Below the pieces are notes generated by a model, which saw only the letters and a list, made by a program, of their open reading frames with translations, was not told where the DNA came from and ran no database searches. A stretch of 64,000 nt of DNA from Bolinopsis microptera (taxonomy: Eukaryota > Ctenophora > Tentaculata > Lobata > Bolinopsidae): NCBI RefSeq assembly GCF_026151205.1, contig NC_087075.1:15797571-15861570 (forward strand). Reading direction: 5' to 3'. The translations under genes and the position numbers were made by a program. Of the stretch, positions 2,191 to 54,599 are shown in pieces (the stretch's first letter is position 1; the number at the start of each line of letters is the position of its first letter).

Positions 2191-3330
2191 GTCATGTTGT
2201 AGGTCCTTCCTTTTCTTTTCTGTCACTCGGGGGGAACCTCCGCTTGTTCACTTTACTCAAGAATCTGGCAGTTTCTCTGATCAATAGGATATCCTTGAAG
2301 AGGTCGGCAAAGGTCTCCGCTCCAGAGGTGATCATGGTTCTCGCCTGCTGACCTATGTTTCGCCTCAGGTCGTCGTAAAGCGAACAATCCGTGAGAATGT
2401 GTTTCTCATCTTCAATGATCGGCTCAAACATTGGTAGTTCGGCCAGTATACCGACAGCTTCAAGGTCTGATGAAGAACAGTGCTTACAAATGCGACTGAG
2501 CGGATTTTCACGGTTAATGGCGTATCTACCGGTCTCGATGTTGAACTTATGAGCACTCATTCTGAACTGCGCCAGCCGCTTCACCTCTTCTCCACTGAGC
2601 TGCAGGTTCAGGTACGCTTCAGCTGTGAATTCACTTTTGATAGTGTTGTAGAAACTGAGCTTCCGGTTGTTTTGCCGCTCCTCGTTCCAACAGTTAATAA
2701 AAGTACTACGTAGTGCTGTTTTGAATTGGTTGGGGTAGGTCAACCTGCGAGATGATACTGACTGAAGGCTTTGTCGGAGATCTTCTATACCTTTGTACCA
2801 TGGCAGATTGAGTGTGCGTTGTTCTATGAACGCCTGTCTGGCTAGACTTGTGCAACCAGCTCTGTCCATTTGCTCAAGTCGGTTGAAATACCCAAATACT
2901 TGCTTTGATGCCTTTATCACTAGGGGGCAGCGGCCTGTATCACCCCATACACTCGCATTTGAGGTTTTTCTGCCCACTCCTAAGGTCCACTTGAGGAATG
3001 AGAGATGAAGCTTTTCGAGAGGATCTCTTGCAGTCTCCTTCAGGAGAGATTTGGTGTTGATATTATCTTGATAGTTTCTGACAAAGAGAGTCTCTGGGAG
3101 CCACACCTGACATCCGTATGTCACAATCGGTACCACAAGCGCGTCGAATAGCTTGAATACGATTGTTCGCCTGAAGTGTCTTAAGTCAATACTGCTTTTT
3201 AGCGCGAAGTAGCTTCTGAGACCTTTTTGCTTCAGTTTGTTCTGTGCTACTGCTGAAGAACCGTTGAGGGTAAAGGTTATCCCGAGGTAGCAATATTCTC
3301 GAACTGATGTGATGTTGGATGCGCACGCAA
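2191..3330 (-). mobile_element. LINE (non-LTR retrotransposon) ORF2 3' fragment, 5'-truncated
   Basis: A 314-codon open frame (2192-3136) continues upstream in the same frame to about 3330, where a stop and unrelated sequence mark a 5' truncation. The protein has the late reverse-transcriptase/thumb signature EYCYLGI, then KGLRSYFALK, then LVVPIVTYGCQVW, then VWGDTGRCP. The C-terminus has a zinc-finger-like CX2C (CKHC), about 27 residues, then HX4C (HILTDC). This order is typical of Jockey/CR1/I-type non-LTR elements. The catalytic YxDD region is not present, so it cannot be autonomous. Two further fragments of the same family lie at 45420-46448 and 52118-52291. Clade assignment is inference; LINE origin is firm. 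Confidence 0.88.
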
Positions 3331-10378: not shown

Positions 10379-13300
10379 TCGTGTCCGTCACGTGCCAACG
10401 CTTCGTACACGCACTTTGTCGTCAAGAACAGGGATATCTTGTCCCTTGGGAGCTTGTTAGCATGTCCAAACATCTGAAGATAATTATAATAGTTTACCCA
10501 CTATTATACATTATAATTTATAATATAATATAATATATAATTATAATAGCGTTGCTGGAAAAAGTTCAGTCATATGTCTAAACAGTGTAATATCCGGGTT
10601 GGAACACAATCTATTGGTCGCATTGTTGGAATGTTTCTGGGGACAAATTTATAGTGTTCCCGTTTATTATTGCGACTAGGAAAACAAACTGTATAAACAG
10701 TATTTAAATGTACGAACTTGCAGTTTTCACTTTGTCGGATAAAAAATATTCTGTAAACTTTACCTGGAAGTATTTAGTATTCATTTATGGTTGAGTTTGT
10801 AATATCTGTGAAGTGTTGTCATGGTTACGAAGTGTCTGTGATCGTTTAACACATAGTTGACAGTTGTCAGAATTTCATGGTGTTATAAGTATAATGGGTA
10901 TCCCCGATGTTGTCAAAATGTTTGAGTCAATTTTTGACGGGTCACATTTACGAAGTATAGTGTGCATGAGTGAATAAAAATCTAAAAATAGAATTTGGGT
11001 AGAATGTGATCAACAAAACCGGCTATTTATTCTTGACACTTTCAAATTACCCAAGATATCATTATTAACTTCAATCCTTCTCAGATCTAAAAATGTGGAT
11101 TCCGGTGGGGTGGAGGGTGGGGGGAGGGGGGGGGGGGTTGAGGGATGGTGGGGAGGGGGGATGGTGGGGTGGGGTGAGTGAGGGATGGTGGGGGTGAGGG
11201 AGGGTAAGGGATGGTGGGGTGGGGTGGGGGTGATAATGTTTTGATAACTGACAGCAATAAACCACCCAGCTTCCACTATTAAATACACAGTTTAATCACT
11301 GACCTGAATTGGTTATTGGTTATGAAGTGATGTCATGGTTACGAAGTGTTGTCATGGTTATTGGTTATGAAGTGTTGTCATGGTTACGAACCTGTATCAA
11401 CCTGCCGCTTATTTCGGCGACCTGCTTATCGTTGAGGTTAGTTTTACTAATCTTAGACAGGTCTGAAATCATTTTAGGGAGCTGTTTAGCTGTCACCATT
11501 CCTGATTTGTTGGTGTCGTACTGGTCAAATAATCTGAAAGATTTGATATTAATGGTAACTAGTGGTAACTAGTGGTAACTAGTGGTAACTAGTGGTAACT
11601 AGTGGGTACCGCGACAATTGACCCCCCGACAATTGACCCCCCGACAATTGACCCCCCGACAATTGACCCCCCGACGATTGACCCCTATGTAATTACACTG
11701 GGGTCAGTTGTCGCGAAATCTAGGGTTTAGTACGACAATTGACCCCCCGACAATTGACCCCCCATGTAGTTACACTGGGGTCAATTGATCGGGTTAGGGT
11801 CAGGATCCTGGGTCAGGGTTAGGGTTAGGGTCCTGGGTCAGGGTAACGGTTAGGGTTAGGGTTAGGGTTAGGGTTAGGGTTAGGGTTCCGGTTAGGGTTA
11901 GGGTTAGGGTTAGGGTTAAGGTTCGGGTTAGGGTTAGGGTTAGGGTTAGGGTTAGGGTTAGGGTTAGGGTTAGGGTAAGAGTTAGGGTTAGGGTTAGGGT
12001 CAGGGTCAGGGTTAGGGTCAGGGTCAATTGTATTTAATTATATTGTCGGGGGGTCAATTGTCGGGGGGTCAATTGTCGGGGGGTCAATTGTCGGGGGGTC
12101 AATTGTCGCCCACCCAACTAGTGGTAACTAGTGGTTAAATGTTGGGTCACCTAACCATATCTGCCGACATTTGATTGATAAATCGTATCGTTAAACTATC
12201 GTAAATAATCTTATGGCAGTGGTTGTCAAAATAAGTATATAATTTAATATTATATATATATAATATTAACGTTGTAAATACTAATTCTCTCACTTTGATT
12301 TATATGTTTATTTGAATGACAAATTCTTCACAAGGTTGAGAATTAATGAATTATTTTGTCAAGCATGCTCCCAATAAATAATACTGACTACCAAATAGAT
12401 ATTTTGCATATTTAGCGTGCGAGAACTATTGTGATTTGTGATATATACCGCAACTAGCGGTAACTAGTGGTAACTAGTGGTAACTAGTGGTAACTAATGG
12501 TAACTAGTGGTAACTAGCGGTGCAACTAGCGGTGACTAGTGGTAACTAGTGGTAACTGGTGGTTACAAGTAGTAACTAGTGGTAACTAGTGGTAACTAAT
12601 GGTAACTAGTGGTTACAAGTAGTAACTAGTGGTAACTAGTGGTAACTAGTGGTAACTAGTGGTTACAAGTAGTAACTAGTGGTAACTAGTGGTAACAAGT
12701 GGTAACTAGTGGTAACTAGTGGTAACTAGTGGTGACTAGTGGTGACAAGTGGTAACTAGTGGTGACTAGTGGTAACAAGTGGTAACTAGTGGTTACAAGT
12801 AGTAACTGGTGGTAACTAGTGGTTACAAGTTGTAACTTGTGATAACTAGTGGTAACTAGTGGTAACTGGTGGCAACTGGTGGTAACTGGTGGTAACTGGT
12901 GGTAACTAACCTATCAAATTCCTCCTTAGTAAATCTTTTCCTCTCTTTCAGAGCATTCGTAAACCTTTCCTCTACCGGGAAGATAGCTGCCATCTCATCA
13001 ATCTCAATAACACCTGGATAACATTAACAATTACATAATTACATAATTACATAATTACATAATTACACAATTACACAATTACATAATTAAATAATTACAT
13101 AATTAAATAATTACATAATTAAATAATTACATAATTACATAATTACATAATTACATAATTACATAATTACATAATTACACGATTACATAATTAAATAATT
13201 AAATAATTACATAATTACATAATCACATAATTAAATAACATTGCACATGCACAAGAATTTTGACATTTCTGGCTGGGATTTTGATAAGATCATATCAAAA

Positions 13301-17524: not shown

Positions 17525-17822
17525 TGGTCTCCTGAAAGAGTTTGATTGTTATGTTGTAGTCGGAGATAATTGGGATTTAATTCCTTCTTTTGGTTCTAGT
17601 CGGTTGTTATTACTTTATTAAGTGTCGTCGTGTGAACTTATACTATGGTAACTGGTAACCATAGTAACTGTGCCGTCGTGTGAACTATAGACTGTTGTTG
17701 AGGAGTAATATTTTGTCCGAACGGGTAATTTTGAGTTTGAAGCTTGTTAAACCTGTCACTTGTTTAAATATATTGAGAAAAGTTTGATTTTTAGTCTTAA
17801 ATCAAAACCATTCAGAAACCAA

Positions 17823-20086: not shown

Positions 20087-21143
20087 AAACCCGTAACAGC
20101 TGGTTTAATTGAGATTTTGAGATTTTATTGTTACTGTTAAGGTTTTTCGGCAGTTTTATTTTCTTATTCTTAATCAAATGATAGCTTCCCCTTATCAACA
20201 ATGTAGTTTAAATTTTTTTGCTGTCAATGTTCTAAAGATCCAAACAGCATACATTTTACATAGTATAAAACAGCATCTTACTTCGTTAACGTTTTAAGCT
20301 TTTTCAACCACATTTCTTAACAAACGATTAATTTCCTCGCTGATCACAAAAAACTGGAGCAACACCACAAACAAACAAAGTACAAACCAGTGTCCACACT
20401 ACTATATATAAACCAGTGTTCCACTAGACTGCAAACTAGGACCCTTTATTCAGAAAAATAAAAGAAATAGTTTCATGGCTGAACATTAAGCAGGAGGCCT
20501 ACTGATTAGGTGGTCTGTAGTAGGAGGCGTACTGGGAGGCGTACTGGAGTTACATTAATAATCTGTGAGGTGGACCACTGATGCACAGCTGGTGCACACT
20601 GCACAGCTGGTCCGCATATCCTACATTATCGTTGTGTGCGCTTAATAATACATGTTGCGACAGCTCTCGTAGCTTTTAACAGGTTATATAGGAAGGGGGT
20701 GCAGGTGTTTCTGAGGGAACAGTCACTTGTTTGTTACTGGTAGTGTAACTATGGTAACACTTGTTTGTTACTGTTACAGTAAGGGAACTTGTCAGGCTAG
20801 TTGTTGTAAATATTTATGATTTCTTACTCCGCAAGCAATGCTAGTATTTCTTCATATATGCGGGCAGATGTTGCGATAAATGTTGGAGGTATGGCCTGGA
20901 ATTTTCTAGAAGTAAGTTTTTGGACATGAGAATTTAGGGTCCATAGGGTGACTGGCAAAATTGTTGCCAACAAATTTACAAATTTGTTGACCTAAGAGAT
21001 TACCAAAATGTGCCATTAACTGAGGTTTTATGTGGCTTTAGCAATATGCTACTATGGTAACTATGGTAAGTATGGTAACTATGGTAACTACTCTAACTTA
21101 CCTTCTTCTTTTATTTTCCACCAGAAATTGCTTTGCATCAGAC
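20087..21143. other. No gene seen; contains a GTAAC micro-insertion
   Basis: Direct duplicates CACTTGTTTGTTACTG at 20724-20739 and 20758-20773 bracket an 18-bp insert, GTAGTGTAACTATGGTAA. A short CTATGGTAA array lies at about 21049-21090. Otherwise AT-rich without coding signal. Confidence 0.7.
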
Positions 21144-23508: not shown

Positions 23509-25438
23509 GTCATTCTAGGTTTATATCTGCAGCAATTCCGAACTGTGACAGGGATGACGTTATTAGTCTGTATATATTATATATATTAGTCTGTTGTAGA
23601 AACTTAGAAAGGAACTGTCAGAAGTTGGCACTGGCACCACTTGTCAGAAGTTTACGTAGGCAATTTGGCGATCGTGCGAATAATTAGTTATGTCAGACGG
23701 TTTTAAAGTTGTGCATGCTGATTGCTGCTGCTGATGCTGGGTAACAAAAACATGGTTTCTGAGTGTTTACGATGTTAAGATCAAAGAATGGTCATTAAAG
23801 TTTGCACATCGCAGGTAAATTAATTATTGATCTCAGAAGAAGTCCATGCAATTTTACAAGAGATCCCAATTGGAAGACTATTGAGCCTTTTGAACTTACG
23901 GAAATATCTTGGTCACTGCGTATTAATGTAATGAATCGGAAAAACAGCCAATTCCAACAAAACCAAACTTTCAAAAAAAACAAAAATGTTCACAAAGAAT
24001 GTGTGTCCTATTACATATAAAGACTGAATCATTTCGCAACATCATTACTATTATGCAAAGTTTAAACTTACTTTTGTCTAGATCCCATGTTGTCACTAGT
24101 TGTTACACTAGTTGTTACTATGGTTACTGCTTTACTCTGCTGCCTGTTGTCACAGAGACTATCCCTCACACAAAAACAATAAACTCACAGCACTGCTACT
24201 AAAATATCACATTGAACCTACTACTACTACAGTAGTAACTAAACTAGTAACATGAGCTCAAAAGTACAGCGCTTAACAAAGTACTCTAGTAGAAACACAG
24301 TGAAATTAGTCGGATAACTGTTCGCATCACAGATCTTACATGACAACATAAAGCTGATGACAGATGACTATAAAACGTAGGTCACTCAATGGACAATGCC
24401 TAATTATCTAATTAAACAATATCTAATTGACCAACAGCTTGATGCGTGACTGTGTGTGCTTGTGGAATGTGTGCTAATTAAGTGCCGGCCTGCATGGTAG
24501 GTACACAGTACACATACCAAGCTTTAACTAAGTGAGTAATTGTGCTCACAGGTAACACTTGACTGTGACTGGTAGTGTAACTATGGTAACAGTAAAATAG
24601 GTTGAAACGTAATAGAGCAAAACTTGGACGCGGTATAGGAAGTCTGGTTACACAAATCAAAATCTACAGACGCTGAGTAAATAGCTCTGGATATTAATAT
24701 ACAACAGACGCTGAGTAAATAGGTCGGCATAATAATCTACAACAGACGCTAAGCAAATAGGTCGGCATAATAATCTACAACAGACGCTAAGCAAATAGGT
24801 AGGCATAATATTCTTTAAATTGTTGGTGTAATAATGACAGCTGGCTCTACTACTCTATAATACTGCAGTAACTATGGTAACTAGTAGTGTAACTATGGTA
24901 ACAGTACTACTACTCTATACTGCAGTAAATGAGTTGCTAATCGTTGCAACTAACTCCATAAAGAGATTACATTTTACAACTTCGCTTGACTCTGGTGTGA
25001 TTAAGCTCTAATGACTGAGAATCAGAAACTTGCTACATATCGAATAGAATAGAATGACGATTCGAGCAAAACTTTTAATTTTATACTGCGACATGATGAA
25101 TTTGCCACCAGCTCTCAAAGCCATGAATCTGGTGGCACTTTTACCTGATCTTCTATAACAACACAAAACACACACAACCTGATCTTCTACTCACCGTGTA
25201 AAATAGTTGACAGGTAGCAAAGGGTCACACTATAGAGGTCACAATTTCTGTGAGGATCAACAGTTTGACAAGTTGTGTACTTATAACGGTTAAATGTTTG
25301 TAAACAGCTTATATTTATAACGTCAACAAAAGTACTGTGCACAAAGTAAACAAAGAGCTGTGCACAGTAAAGTTGCAAAACAATAATTCTAATGTTTATA
25401 AATAGATGCCCGACATGTTCATACTATGCGAATAAAGT
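23509..25438. other. No gene seen; includes GTAAC micro-insertion and small repeats
   Basis: A 24-bp or so flanking duplication, CTACTACTCTAT..ACTGCAGTAA (24847-24871 and 24907-24928, differing by a 3-bp indel), brackets a CTATGGTAACTAGTAGTGTAA insert. A roughly 44-bp unit, CAGACGCTGAGTAAATAGGT-like, repeats three to four times at 24664-24815. Other parts show no coding signal. Confidence 0.6.
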
Positions 25439-25698: not shown

Positions 25699-25764
25699 TA
25701 ATACAGAATGTAACTAGTAGTGTAACTATGGTAACTAGTAGTGTAACTATGGTAATACAGAATG
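25699..25764 (+). repeat. GTAACTAGTAG insert with 12-bp direct duplication
   Basis: TAATACAGAATG at 25699-25710 and 25753-25764 brackets a 42-bp insert made of two TAACTAGTAGTGTAACTATGG units. Confidence 0.9.
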
Positions 25765-38487: not shown

Positions 38488-40678
38488 ATAATAATGCCTT
38501 CACCAAAACCGTTGAAAAATTATTTTTGCCTATAGTGACTTAGTGAAAGTTCATTTCCCATTTTAAATGCTGTCAAATGCGGAAAGAGCTCATTACATTT
38601 ATGAGACACCATTTACATTTTGTGGCCAAATTTTTGCTCAGTAGATACCAACCCCGATAAATGTAAACTTGGACTATGTTGCAATGATATGAATCAGGAA
38701 CACATAGATATTACACAATTGGTAACACAGTCCGACCGCCAGCCTGCCAGTTAATAGGATACCCAAAATTATTGCCAAATAGCCAAGAATACCTACTTAT
38801 ACTCCCAAGTCCGGGCATTTACACATCAGTTTAAAGTGTAATAGTGGAATATTTATATTTTAACAGTCTAGCCTAGTTGGCTAACCATTATATACCATAT
38901 CTAGATTGCTATAATTATATCATGAACTTGCTCTACGACGTAGTGGTGCAGAAAAAGTACAGAAAGAAAGCTACAAAAGTAGAAGGAACAATATATTGAA
39001 TGATAGAACCTTAAAAGCTCGAAGAGATTAAAGTAGAACTTTGAAAAGACTAGTACCATATTACCATACTCTTTGTATGTCAAAACTTTAAAAAGAGTAT
39101 AATAAAACTTTGAAGCGACAACTTATTGAGTAGCAATATTATAAACGACCTCGTAAAATTTAACCCAAATTCAGAATAAAGTAAGATTCCTAAATATTTC
39201 TTCACAAGTATAATAGGCTATAGTCCTAATTGAATGGGTGTGTTATTCCAGTTAAGTGCGTGAATTAGTATTATTGATACAGATTATCATTAACAAATTT
39301 AATTATTTAAGAGCAAAACAATAGTCCAGTTTTTGAATAACCAACTGTATTGCCAAGATAATAACCACAATTACTGAGGGAACTAGAGGGAACAACATTG
39401 ATCTAAACCTGTAGAATTAAGATTAAACTCTTGGTGAAACCATGGCCACAAACCTTTTGAATAACTAACAAGAATATTAAATAGAGTAGGCGTTACTTGT
39501 TGAATATTGAATATTCACCTGTTAAACGAACAGAGCCCACGCCCTTCTTGCTTCCACATAGTGACGATTTTAGTGAAGGAAGTTACATAGTTCTGTTCAA
39601 CGTAATAGTGGTTTACCGGTCAAGTATTTTAAACTCTTCCTCGATTCTCTGACTAAAATCATATTTTGTATTGAGATTCTATGGTTACTACGGTAACTAT
39701 GGTTACCATAGTAGCCTTATTGTAATGTCAACTACAGACATTATAACTTCAAGGCCTGGGTTTCACATATATAACCATATAACCTATGCTCTTGATTTTA
39801 CGTAAATGAATCATATTTAACTAGTACCTTCTTCCACGAGTATGATATCTTTATTACATAATTATACTTATAAAACATAAATAGATAAAATCTTAGGTAA
39901 AATATTCGGCACGAAATTAAAAATGAGCATGATTTAAACAACAACAAAATTCTTCACTTTTAGAACTACGAAATCAAAATCACAACATACAAACCAACCA
40001 AATATAAACCAAAGCAAATTATTAATGAAGCGTAAACGCGAAACTTGTAAAGAGTTAAAGCACCGTGCAAACTTGTTGATTTCTACGTCAGATATATATT
40101 CCAATGTTTCACGTTAAAGATGTATAGCGAAGTACCGATATTCTTAATACTTCCTCGGTCCCTGACGTCACTCAATAATGAGTTTTAACGATTTGGAGGA
40201 ACCGTGAGACATTGGTTTGATGTTTTGTATTTGTGCAGGTTATGTTATATGTTATAACATAACCTGTTATTATATAACATATTATGTGTGATAATAAACA
40301 AGTTAATATTAATGGATTTGATCTTATGAGAATGACAACTACTGGGGAGAAAGACTGTAAAACCTATCAGTAATATTATCAAGAGTGGTTGCAAGTGTTG
40401 ACGTTTAATTTATATTTAAAATTGGTAAATTCATAGGCTAAGTAGGCTTATAAGGGATAAAAACCAGTAGGTTACCATGGTTACTACACTGTTATAAGGG
40501 ATAAATTTACGAAATATAGTATTGGCAACCGCTTGTCAAGATATTGTAAAAAAATTTTCTTTTTTAGGCAAGAAATTAACACTATCAAAACTACAAATCT
40601 TAATTTAAGTTAACTTAAGTAGGTTACCATGACTACACTGGCACACGTACAAGGCACACCTTCGCAACAGTGACAAAA
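38488..40678. other. No gene seen; CTATGGTTAC palindromes and one micro-insertion
   Basis: CTATGGTTACTACGGTAACT with TATGGTTACCATAG follows at about 39680-39712. TTATAAGGGATAAA direct duplicates (40448-40461, 40492-40505) bracket a 30-bp insert containing GTTACCATGGTTAC; a related GTAGGTTACCATGACTACAC lies at about 40619. Confidence 0.6.
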
Positions 40679-41729: not shown

Positions 41730-44090
41730 GGGAGGATGGTAACTAGTGGTGTAACCCTGGTAACTAGTGGTGTAACCCTGGTAACTAGTGGTGTTGCCAT
41801 GGTAACTAGTGGTGTTGCCATGGTAACTAGTGGTGCAACACTGGTAACTAGTGGTGTAACCCTGGTAACTAGTGGTGTTGCCATGGTAACTAGTGGTGCG
41901 ACACTGTAAACCATAGAACAAGATATTGGGCAAAAGTACCCGAAATCACAAACAGAAATTAAAAACATGATTTTAATGACAGTACACTAGCGTAAGTGTT
42001 CGTGTAGGATATATTCGATATAATGGTTGTCATGGTGATATATTCGGCTCATATTATGAAAGGTTGGCCAGGAAATGTTTAACAAACAGTAATTCTAGAA
42101 GGGTACACGTTGTTGAGGTGTAGCAGGGAATATAATTAATTACTTGTCATCGACACACTGATAAAGATGGGAATGGAATCATTTATGGAAATGTGGATTA
42201 CCGTTTTTGGGTCCTGTCATCTTAGCCTGTGTAGTCATGGTAACCTACTGTCAGCATGATTCAAGGAGTTTAAGTAGGTGTTATTATGGCTTGTGTAAAA
42301 ACCCCGCGATTTCAGAAGATAATGTGCAGCAAAGTGCTTTGTCAAGTGACCTCATGTCTGTTGATAGTGGTGATGTCATGTTTGTTGAGTTGGTGGGTCG
42401 AGAGGTTTCTTTGGAGTTTAATTGGGAGAAAACATAATATGACTTTGTATAATGACACATAAATTATGCGACATAATGACACACAAATTATGCGACATAA
42501 TGACGCAGGAGAAAAATTTGTCAGAATGTGAAATGTGACAGGCAAATTTATGAAGAATTGGGTATATATGAATTAATTGCATGGTGAAACAGTGCTCAGA
42601 CAGTTCAGCAGTAAAATAAATTATGAATTAAACGTAATATTAAATATATTCGTTTGTGACAGCATGTGACGTTAAACAGTTTGTGGGAAATCATGGTCTT
42701 AGATTCAATAAGAAAAATAAATCATGCTCATAAACAAAATACATTATGCTCGCAAAAAAATAAACTGTGCTTAAAAATAGAATAAATTTCAATTATGCTT
42801 TTACAACAGCGATAACGCTAGAAAACATCAACATAATGCAGAATGCTCCCACACCAGCTCTTACAAAATGCTTGAAAACACACTTACATGAGAGGGTCCA
42901 GTGACATGACGGAATCCTGGGAGTGGTGTAACCCTGGTAACTAGTGGTGTAACCCTGGTAACTAGTGGTGTAACCCTGGTAACTAGTGGTGTTGCCATGG
43001 TAACTAGTGGTGCGACACTGTAAACCATAGAACAAGATATTGGGCAAAAGTACCCGAAATCACAAACAGAAATTAAAAACATGATTTTAATGACAGTACA
43101 CTAGCGTAAGTGTTCGTGTAGGATATATTCGATATAATGGTTGTCATGGTGATATATTCGGCTCATATTATGAAAGGTTGGCCAGGAAATGTTTAACAAA
43201 CAGTAATTCTAGAAGGGTACACGTTGTTGAGGTGTAGCAGGGAATATAATTAATTACTTGTCATCGACACACTGATAAAGATGGGAATGGAATCATTTAT
43301 GGAAATGTGGATTACCGTTTTTGGGTCCTGTCATCTTAGCCTGTGTAGTCATGGTAACCTACTGTCAGCATGATTCAAGGAGTTTAAGTAGGTGTTATTA
43401 TGGCTTGTGTAAAAACCCCGCGATTTCAGAAGATAATGTGCAGCAAAGTGCTTTGTCAAGTGACCTCATGTCTGTTGATAGTGGTGATGTCATGTTTGTT
43501 GAGTTGGTGGGTCGAGAGGTTTCTTTGGAGTTTAATTGGGAGAAAACATAATATGACTTTGTATAATGACACATAAATTATGCGACATAATGACACACAA
43601 ATTATGCGACATAATGACGCAGGAGAAAAATTTGTCAGAATGTGAAATGTGACAGGCAAATTTATGAAGAATTGGGTATATATGAATTAATTGCATGGTG
43701 AAACAGTGCTCAGACAGTTCAGCAGTAAAATAAATTATGAATTAAACGTAATATTAAATATATTCGTTTGTGACAGCATGTGACGTTAAACAGTTTGTGG
43801 GAAATCATGGTCTTAGATTCAATAAGAAAAATAAATCATGCTCATAAACAAAATACATTATGCTCGCAAAAAAATAAACTGTGCTTAAAAATAGAATAAA
43901 TTTCAATTATGCTTTTACAACAGCGATAACGCTAGAAAACATCAACATAATGCAGAATGCTCCCACACCAGCTCTTACAAAATGCTTGAAAACACACTTA
44001 CATGAGAGGGTCCAGTGACATGACGGAATCCTGGGAGTGGTGTAACCCTGGTAACTAGTGGTGTAACCCTGGTAACTAGTGGTGTAAGCG
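41730..44090. repeat. 1114-bp tandem duplication with GTAACTAGTGG arrays at the junctions
   Basis: CCATAGAACAAGATATTGGG at 41911 recurs at 43025, and sequence to about 42925/44040 is practically identical. Arrays of GTAACTAGTGGTGTAACCCTG occupy 41735-41905, 42925-43018 and 44037-44085, at each junction. Each unit's right end includes 30 or so bases from the 3' end of the exon at 44108-44343 with its GTAAGT donor. A 76-codon plus-strand frame (42207-42437 and 43321-43551) is duplicated but unsupported. Confidence 0.93.
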
Positions 44091-44107
44091 CTTGAAAACA
44101 CACTTAC

Positions 44108-44343
44108 ATGAGAGGGTCCAGGGACATGACGGAATCCTGGGACGAGGCTCTGTTAGGGTTGCTTGCGGAGGAGGCTGTCCGTTCGTGGTCCTGACTGAAC
44201 GAGTCCGGGCTGAACAGACCGCTCAGTGTCCGGGTCAGTTTGCTGAACGCTTTGTTGAACATCCGGGTTTTCTTCTGAGAGTAACTGTTGAAATTGCAGT
44301 TGGGGATTGAGTAACGAGGGTAGTTGCGGCACTGTAGGGGGAA
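44108..44343 (-). CDS. Internal coding exon of an unrecognised gene
   Basis: Minus-strand segment of 236 nt between a polypyrimidine CTCTTCAG acceptor and a perfect GTAAGT donor. It is open in one frame and encodes 78 residues: CRNYPRYSIPNCNF near the start, then KKTRMFNKAFSKLTRTLSG, then a Ser-rich tail ASSASNPNRASSQDSVMSL. Composition and splice sites look genuine; no domain recognised. No partner exon found with confidence on either side. The 3' end of the exon plus donor is copied twice downstream in the 1114-bp duplication, with GGG changed to GTG. An alternative acceptor (CCCTACAG) lies 12 bp inside. Confidence 0.5.
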
Positions 44344-45419: not shown

Positions 45420-46448
45420 TTGCCAAATTCTTTTGCACGGAATAAGTTCATGATGGCCCCATATTCTTTGAGCATTGAGGCTTTTAAGGTTGTCTAAGAG
45501 GTTTAGTTGGACCCGAGGGAATGGTAGCTGGGACATTCATTTATGACGTGGTCCTCGGTTTCAAGGATTGGTGTTTCAAAGAATGGTAGTTCTTCGAAGA
45601 ACCGCATGACGTCGGTGTCTGAGGAGCAGCAAAAGCGACATGTTTTCACTGCTATGTTGTAGCGATCTGCAGTGTAGCGACCTTTCTCTACCCTCAGATC
45701 GTGACTGCCAGATCGAAGTTTAGCAATGTTAGCTCTTTTAACCTTGCATGGGTGCTGTAAGTACGGTTCTTCACCAAACTCAGCTTTGACCGCAGTGTAG
45801 AATGACATTAACTAGTAGTGTAACTATGGTAACTAGTAGTGTAACTATGGTAACGCAGTGTAGAATGACATTTTAGGCTGATTGTGAAGATCCTCCTTGC
45901 AATACATTGAGGGAGGACGGTCACTGTCCAGGGGGTTCTTCCTGTGTCGCCGTAACAAAAGTTGTTATTTGCCTTTTTGTGGAAACCCAATATCATTTAA
46001 GAATTTTCAAGTGAGTGGTTTCAAGAGCATTTTTTGTTGCTGCTTTGGAAAGACTCGCTTCTTGATTTTTCGAGAGGATGGCTTTCACGATGTTGGTTGA
46101 TGGCAGCCAATCAGGGCATCCATATGTGGCCACTGGCTTGACTAAGCTATCGATGAGTTTTAGCATCGTGCTAGTGGTAAGGGCTCTCGTGTCAATAATT
46201 CGTCTCAAAGAAAAGAGTGAGCGAAGACCTTTCTTGCTAAGTTCATTGATCGCTTGTTTAAGGGAACCGTTCAGAGATAATTGGATTCCAAGATAGTAGT
46301 ATTTTCTGACTGGTGCGATGTCCAAGTTGCCTAGTTTGAAGCCGTAAGCACATTTCAGTATTCGTGAGCTTGTGTTGAGGACCATCACACTGGTTTTGTT
46401 GATATTCACAGACAGCTCCCACTTTTCAGCATAGTCATGCAAGCAATG
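45420..46448 (-). mobile_element. LINE ORF2 fragment, frameshifted and interrupted by a GTAAC insertion
   Basis: Same family as 2191-3330. Upper part (46442-45993) has WELSVNINKTSVMVLN, KYYYLGI, KGLRSLFSLRR, PVATYGCPDWLP. A 1-nt frameshift at an AAA run near 45994 leads into the next frame (GYGDTGR equivalent CYGDTGRTP). At 45810-45854 a 45-bp GTAACTAGTAG insert with an 18-bp duplication breaks the SFYTAVKAEF segment. The lower part (45808-45503) has CRFC, ~27 residues, HVINEC. A second frameshift near 45505 precedes the tail. The 5' break at about 46448 meets a minisatellite. Non-functional. Confidence 0.88.
45792..45872. mobile_element. 45-bp GTAAC micro-insertion with exact 18-bp target duplication
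   Basis: GCAGTGTAGAATGACATT occurs at 45792-45809 and again at 45855-45872. The insert 45810-45854 is two AACTAGTAGTGTAACTATGGT units plus AAC. The LINE paralogue at 2191-3330 is uninterrupted at the same codons (SFYNTIKSEF), so the direction, insertion not deletion, is established. Confidence 0.92.
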
Positions 46449-51720: not shown

Positions 51721-51735
51721 AATTACCTATATATA

Positions 51736-51815
51736 GACTAGGTGACACTGGGATTCGAACCCTGAACCTTCTGCGCAGAAGGCGGATGCTCTAACCACTA
51801 GGCCACCTAGTATAG
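51736..51815 (-). mobile_element. Retroposed tRNA-like element with 13-bp target duplication
   Basis: Minus strand carries box A TGGCCTAGTGG and box B GGTTCGAATCC at tRNA spacing, a five-base variable loop and an anticodon loop CTTCTGC with U33, giving anticodon UCU (Arg). The anticodon stem has one mismatch and the normal acceptor register does not pair, but a shifted CTAGGTG/CACCTAG 7-bp terminal stem does. TTACCTATATATA flanks both sides (51723-51735, 51816-51828). It is a tRNA pseudogene or bare SINE head, unlikely to be a charged tRNA. Confidence 0.75.
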
Positions 51816-52117
51816 TTACCTATATATATATACAGGATTAAATAGGATTAAACAGGATTAAACATAAATTTTTCAATGAGAGCCCTAACACTCACGTCTT
51901 GAATATACATCAATATAATAGAAATAAATAAATAAATAATGTGCAAGAGTGTTCTTAAAATAAAAATGTAAAAATCATAAAAATTTAACTTCGTCACATC
52001 TTTTGTTGAAAGAGAAACAAGTGCAAATAATATAATTTAGTTCCCATGAACATATTGTTCCAAAATGATATGATATGGTGATCGTGATATGAAATGAAAT
52101 GAAGCTCGACTTGACTG

Positions 52118-52619: not shown

Positions 52620-52847
52620 GTAGTAACCATGGTAACGAGGGTAGTGCGATACGTGCAGATATTAAAACTGGGCTCCTCATTCTACTGCTTCTGGTGAACT
52701 AATGACGTGACAATGTATCGCTCAATAAATAACGTGACAATGGGAATTGTGTAGATAAGAGAGCAATAAACACGTCCACAGAAAATTCGATTATTTACAG
52801 AAACCATTATCGTGGGATATCTGCAGTAGTAACCATGGTAACGAGGG
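52620..52847. mobile_element. Two identical 22-bp GTAACCATGG insertions, 206 bp apart
   Basis: GTAGTAACCATGGTAACGAG plus GG occurs at 52620-52641 and 52826-52847. The second has an exact TATCTGCA flank on each side (52818-52825, 52848-52855); the first has weaker TACTGCA/TAGTGCG flanks. A third TAGTAACCATGGTAACGA lies at 59596-59613. Confidence 0.75.
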
Positions 52848-54000: not shown

Positions 54001-54350
54001 AACCCTAACCCTAACCCTAACCCTAACCCTAACCCTAACCCTAACCCTAACCCTAACCCTAACCCTAACCCTAACCCTAACCCTAACCCTAACCCTAACC
54101 CTAACCCTAACCCTAACCCTAACCCTAACCCTAACCCTAACCCTAACCCTAACCCTAACCCTAACCCTAACCCTAACCCTAACCCTAACCCTAACCCTAA
54201 CCCTAACCCTAACCCTAACCCTAACCCTAACCCTAACCCTAACCCTAACCCTAACCCTAACCCTAACCCTAACCCTAACCCTAACCCTAACCCTAACCCT
54301 AACCCTAACCCTAACCCTAACCCTAACCCTAACCCTAACCCTAACCCTAA
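54001..54350 (+). repeat. Perfect telomeric (AACCCT)n, 350 bp, at a contig start
   Basis: Fifty-eight error-free units begin at the first base after the gap and end at CCCTAACGGTAAACG. The C-rich strand read 5' to 3' away from the gap is the orientation of a true left chromosome end. Confidence 0.97.
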
Positions 54351-54599
54351 CGGTAAACGTTAAATACTAGTGGAGCCGCGGCAAAGTACTAAAATGCGCG
54401 GGCAATTCTAAAATTGATAATGTCGCCGCGCCTCACGTCTTGTATTATTAGACAACAACATCAAATTCACTGTCCATATTTTGTAACAAAATCTAAAATT
54501 TCATAATACATGGTGTTGTATATGTTTTAATATCACTATAACTAAAGCGGACAAGCTTTTTATTTTACAACAATATCATTCGGTCTCCTTGTCACTGTA

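Follow-up and report, generated by a model that had tools for sequence, protein, structure and literature searches.

Short GTAAC-repeat inserts bracketed by target duplications of variable length in the genome of Bolinopsis microptera

Inserts of a GTAAC satellite repeat have entered previously repeat-free sites at two places in the Bolinopsis microptera genome; across the wider set of such sites, the target is duplicated over a variable length, microhomology is in excess at the insert edges, and no element body adjoins the insert at the sites compared. The best reading, which we consider somewhat more probable than improbable, is that these inserts arise by repair of staggered breaks, with GTAAC satellite copied in through microhomology. 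This reading would provide a transposase-free route by which a satellite spreads as dispersed patches that can be read in the sequence. The comparable filled and empty sites make it possible to test how a satellite reaches new positions, in an animal whose lineage probably branched early.

The focal insertion and its empty sites

The focal insertion lies in a LINE-like repeat within the stretch of 64,000 nucleotides that was analysed (the window) and comprises three features:

45791..45809, no strand, left copy of the target duplication (CGCAGTGTAGAATGACATT), exact match; 18 bp without its first C (45792-45809)
45810..45853, plus strand, GTAAC insert of 44 bp: two 21-bp GTAAC repeat units and 2 bp
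45854..45872, no strand, right copy of the target duplication, exact match; 18 bp as 45855-45872

The preliminary description had placed the insert between two exact 18-bp copies inside a LINE, and this is confirmed: GCAGTGTAGAATGACATT is present exactly at 45792-45809 and 45855-45872 and is found nowhere else in the window, whichever strand is read. Both copies follow a C; with this base included, the duplication measures 19 bp and leaves an insert of 44 bp (44-45 bp by choice of border). The LINE-like character of the host repeat is indicated by the open frame of a related copy, L016, which matches the Pfam reverse transcriptase profile at 28.5 bits (E 1.6e-6), just below the Pfam cut-off (29.6 bits); a profile search of the LINE fragment in the window did not find the domain.

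Comparison with other copies of the LINE establishes that the insertion duplicated its target, as had been proposed. In a BLAST search of the assembly (264,652,675 bases in 232 contigs), other LINE copies match query positions 1-210 and 255-302, and in many of the subjects shown the two matches overlap by 19 bp on the subject; the large aligned pieces are 83-96% identical to the window copy. Explicit alignment shows the insert to be absent, and the target word single, in 28 of 29 other LINE loci, the 29th (L031) aligning only partially across the insertion site. The word is exact in 17 of the 28 loci, has one mismatch in 2 (one of which, L032, has 6 extra bases within the word) and has two mismatches in 9. 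Two of the loci, L016 and L017, have the same sequence over 3403 bases, and the loci are therefore not all independent. The empty site that had been claimed is thus real, and the other LINE copies are better examples of it than the window fragment at 2191-3330 on which the claim was based: its peptide SFYNTIKSEF agrees with a hand translation, the fragment itself having been read by eye. A tandem duplicate already present in the empty site, named beforehand as an observation that would speak against the claim, is absent from the empty paralogues, a partial test that covers paralogues.

A second pair of filled and empty sites has the same structure. Three loci (L066, L067 and L093) represent one filled site common to all three, in which the right-hand duplicate lacks three bases that the left-hand duplicate has; a locus on C2, 99% identical to them, carries a single target copy and reads through without an insert. 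We conclude that a repeat-free empty site exists at two independent places, a conclusion that applies to these two sites.

The focal LINE copy also lacks approximately 200 bp that its relatives have (the aligned pieces are 196-207 bp apart); the junction, at about 45901 and roughly 28 bp past the second duplicate, has a 3-bp overlap, and this deletion and the GTAAC insertion may be one complex event. A census of insertions in 29 aligned LINE rows detected two further minority inserts (12 and 8 bp long) and missed the window insert, probably because of the nearby deletion.

Further sites in the window and the genome

The window contains six further candidate sites:

17626..17686, plus strand, 13-bp exact target duplication, 35-bp insert of GTAAC blocks
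20724..20773, plus strand, 16-bp exact target duplication (copies 20724-20739 and 20758-20773), 18-bp GTAAC insert
24847..24924, plus strand, target duplication with a 3-bp internal difference (copies 24847-24867 and 24907-24924), GTAAC insert
25699..25764, plus strand, 12-bp exact target duplication (copies 25699-25710 and 25753-25764), 42-bp insert
40448..40505, minus strand, 14-bp exact target duplication, 30-bp insert with GTTACCATGGTTAC
43984..44141, plus strand, 52-bp flanking duplication (copies 43984-44035 and 44090-44141, 51/52 identical), array of a variant 21-bp unit

A paralogous region, L082, has an insert in the same position as the site at 24847..24924. The site at 43984..44141 is a weaker case, because it sits among related copies approximately 1.1 kb apart, and its 52-bp duplication may derive from rearrangement of those copies. 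A scan of the window for non-tandem repeat pairs returned 19, of which 7 have GTAAC spacers (two of the 7 being one site), as compared with chance levels of 1.25 and 0.1 per window, respectively, in 20 block-resampled windows; the filter of the scan excluded the focal site at 45791-45872, probably because GCAGTGTA recurs nearby, whereas another repeat search of the window includes it. Separately, a stretch at 51723-51828 that is tRNA-like by eye lies between exact 13-bp repeats (TTACCTATATATA) and looks like a retroposed tRNA or SINE.

In the assembly, GTAACTAGTAGTGTAAC with at most 1 mismatch has 1347 + 1314 occurrences, and the reversed control has 4 + 3. We took 65 sites by motif, in three selections: 20 that were isolated or in short clusters, picked among the 100 matches listed; 9 that match either of two border patterns; and 36 that match a third pattern (L114-L117 were left out of the analysis, and L077, a longer array, was inspected only). 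Five of the 65 retained too little flank for comparison and were excluded, leaving 60 usable sites. The comparison of flank duplications with controls that had been proposed for such inserts, carried out here in part, places them well above controls: direct repeats scoring at least 7 within 15 bp of the array are present at 21 of 60 sites, with 0.56 expected, and those scoring at least 12 at 12 sites, with 0.00 expected (expectations from 3534 cross-pairings of flanks). The 21 sites include a weak gapped match at L095 and exclude L112, the repeat of which (59 bp, two mismatches) falls outside the 15-bp rule. Counting three paralogues once gives 19 of 58, and with looser array limits 12 of 61 sites score at least 12, with 0.15 expected. 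An adjacent duplication is absent by the strict rule in the other 39 of the 60 sites, which may represent old insertions, blunt breaks or events of another origin. At one array, L106, GTACATGTTAC and GTAACATGTAC flank the repeat in inverted, not direct, orientation.

Exact borders around one unit gave 2 matches, and one insert variant has 23 occurrences, including four in a 110-kb stretch of C4. The loci of the third pattern are concentrated toward contig ends, with 25 of 37 (merged by hand, the small contig C16 being left out) within 1.7 Mb of an end, as compared with 18% for an even spread. The literature searched yielded no description of GTAAC inserts of this kind; among those papers listed that contain one of the repeat strings (6 of 23), only PMC11797021, on the M. 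leidyi genome, looked related, and that paper names a tandem repeat, TACATGGAGTTACAATGT, with GTTAC within it.

Insert edges and the origin of the inserts

Exact duplication lengths at 23 sites picked by eye range from 7 to 70 bp with a median of 15 (the 70-bp value, at L107, includes about ten array bases), a spread unlike that of a fixed transposase cut. By eye, the inserts begin and finish at many different positions within the 21-bp unit, that is, without defined termini, and base counts at the target borders, also by eye, contain no obvious cutting motif. Among the 65 GTAAC sites, no common flanking body is present over approximately 300 bp, paralogues and leftover array aside. Register between target and repeat was scored at insert edges formed by an exact unit, a rule that excluded 8 of the 23 sites per side; the sites were chosen by eye, with L053 and L058 re-picked and L061 and L094 left out. 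The last target bases fit the repeat register at 14 of the 15 edges that could be scored (null of 0.47 in simulated insertions), and so are the first target bases at 14 of 15 (null of 0.46), with p values for the in-register means of 0.008 and 0.003, respectively. An earlier set of 9 sites, in which the pairs at L053, L058, L061 and L094 were mis-picked, gave 8/9 and 9/9.

Variable duplication, floating ends, absence of a body and microhomology together argue for break repair or template switching, not for an element. In the staggered-break reading, the two strands would be nicked at positions offset by 7 to about 60 bp, producing a staggered break; one exposed 3' end would anneal through a short match (up to 7 bases) to GTAAC satellite DNA or transcript and be lengthened by about 18-230 bp of repeat; the newly made strand would then anneal at its end, again through a short match (up to 5 bases), to the other exposed end; and fill-in of both overhangs would yield target, repeat, target. 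We infer the paired nicks, the 3' overhangs, the polymerase used and the role of existing satellite arrays as template; local templating is weakly supported by the four copies of one insert variant within 110 kb. The mechanisms offered in the preliminary description fare differently: a repair insertion and a staggered-break fill-in that copies an array fit, and a tiny mobile element fits poorly, since lengths and ends vary and there is no body.

A replication-based mechanism of the MMBIR/FoSTeS type, in which the nascent strand would jump by microhomology to a GTAAC array and return upstream of its point of departure, duplicating the intervening stretch, accounts for the variable duplication length and for microhomology at both edges, and the loss of about 200 bp beside the focal insert, with its 3-bp overlap, is as in complex switching events. 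However, template switching does not require that the return jump be so near and always upstream, and it would also predict deletions and inversions; we regard it as possible but unlikely.

Reverse transcription at a nick yields target duplications. Abortive target-primed reverse transcription, by which a LINE or SINE would contribute nothing but its tandem 3' tail, fits the duplications in this respect, and the host LINE family does end in an 11-bp tandem tail, (CTGGAATTAAA)n; two of 20 fetched sites with this tail, L128 and L129, keep merely about 25-40 bp of LINE body. However, LINE sequence adjoins the tail at all 20 fetched sites (6 by a script pattern, and 14 by a second common flank judged by eye to be another subfamily), with no tail-only copy of the resident LINE among them, whereas the GTAAC sites lack a common body; moreover, GTAAC duplications reach 42-70 bp, and the inserts begin and end at many unit phases. 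These observations make abortive reverse transcription a doubtful source. A DNA transposon or MITE also fits poorly, given the unfixed duplication length (7-70 bp, 23 sites) and undefined termini; with no fixed duplication length, termini or adjoining body, both a tiny transposon and a LINE tail are unlikely. A telomerase-like reverse transcriptase that writes GTAAC onto break ends from its own RNA template would be compatible with the in-register target bases, the irregular related units, the crowding at contig ends (25/37 versus 18%) and the writing of telomeric repeats into mammalian breaks reported in PMC2246262, but is very unlikely, given that TTAGGG arrays are present in the genome and that the insert types look, by eye, too varied for a single template.

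The staggered-break reading has partial counterparts among known systems. LINE target-primed reverse transcription resembles the GTAAC sites in target duplication, and the resident LINE has its tandem 3' tail, but the GTAAC inserts have neither body nor fixed end. Polymerase theta end joining gives templated insertions with edge microhomology and copied filler, and deletes the target. The GTAAC inserts share the edge microhomology and the copied filler; here, in contrast, a single satellite class supplies the filler, and the target is duplicated. In rodents and primates, according to PMC2246262, telomeric repeats are inserted at breaks with bases in register, so that a short tandem-repeat insert, an empty comparison site and in-register bases at the break are features in common; the inserts there carry TTAGGG rather than GTAAC satellite, and adjacent target duplications occur at 6/130 rodent and 4/25 primate loci (Table 1 of that paper), as compared with 21/60 here. 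Breaks with complementary 3' protrusions give rise to small tandem duplications through CST-Pol alpha fill-in (PMC8355091), in which, as proposed here, tens of bp between two staggered nicks are duplicated; here a satellite insert parts the two copies, and a role for the same enzymes would be hypothetical.

Other repeats and the fate of inserted patches

Direct-repeat pairs are not a feature of GTAAC sites alone, since pairs without GTAAC are also above chance: in the window they account for 12 of 19, and 29,689 bases sampled without regard to GTAAC contain 5 pairs (at two loci) as compared with 0.3 expected, none of them with GTAAC. The prevalence of GTAAC in the inserts goes beyond what generic repair explains. 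A second unit type, GTAACCATGGTAAC, has adjacent repeats at 4 of 12 sites kept, with 0.36 expected, 8 of 20 sites, judged by eye to be members or paralogues of interspersed families, having been excluded beforehand; this is as expected if existing arrays act as templates. At seven loci (L146, L147, L149, L151, L152, L156 and L157), one interspersed repeat lies, by eye, beside or around GTAACCATGGTAAC, and a similar core is present in the window near 52623, 52829 and 59598.

At L061 and L094, target word and insert are repeated together as one unit, and a patch can thus become a new minisatellite. A broader proposal, that this lineage closes breaks with a dedicated GTAAC repeat (written from a satellite RNA or another reverse-transcriptase template) and that patch plus duplicated target can amplify into composite minisatellites near chromosome ends, is speculative, and we think it rather unlikely.

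A control with TTAGGG gave no adjacent duplication at 16 sites except at L166, inside a TCAGGG array; the control sites share flanks (five belong to one family, three to another, and more by eye) and are therefore fewer as independent cases. Among the matches listed for C1, which reach 17.1 Mb, 1 of 19 TTAGGG loci is within 1.7 Mb of the contig end, and neither GTAAC nor TTAGGG forms a terminal array in nine contig-end stretches inspected. TTAGGG arrays occur internally in the genome, where they are numerous (L158-L173, and in the window 11791-12024 and 54001-54351), and several of those fetched sit, by eye, between inverted repeats of interspersed elements.
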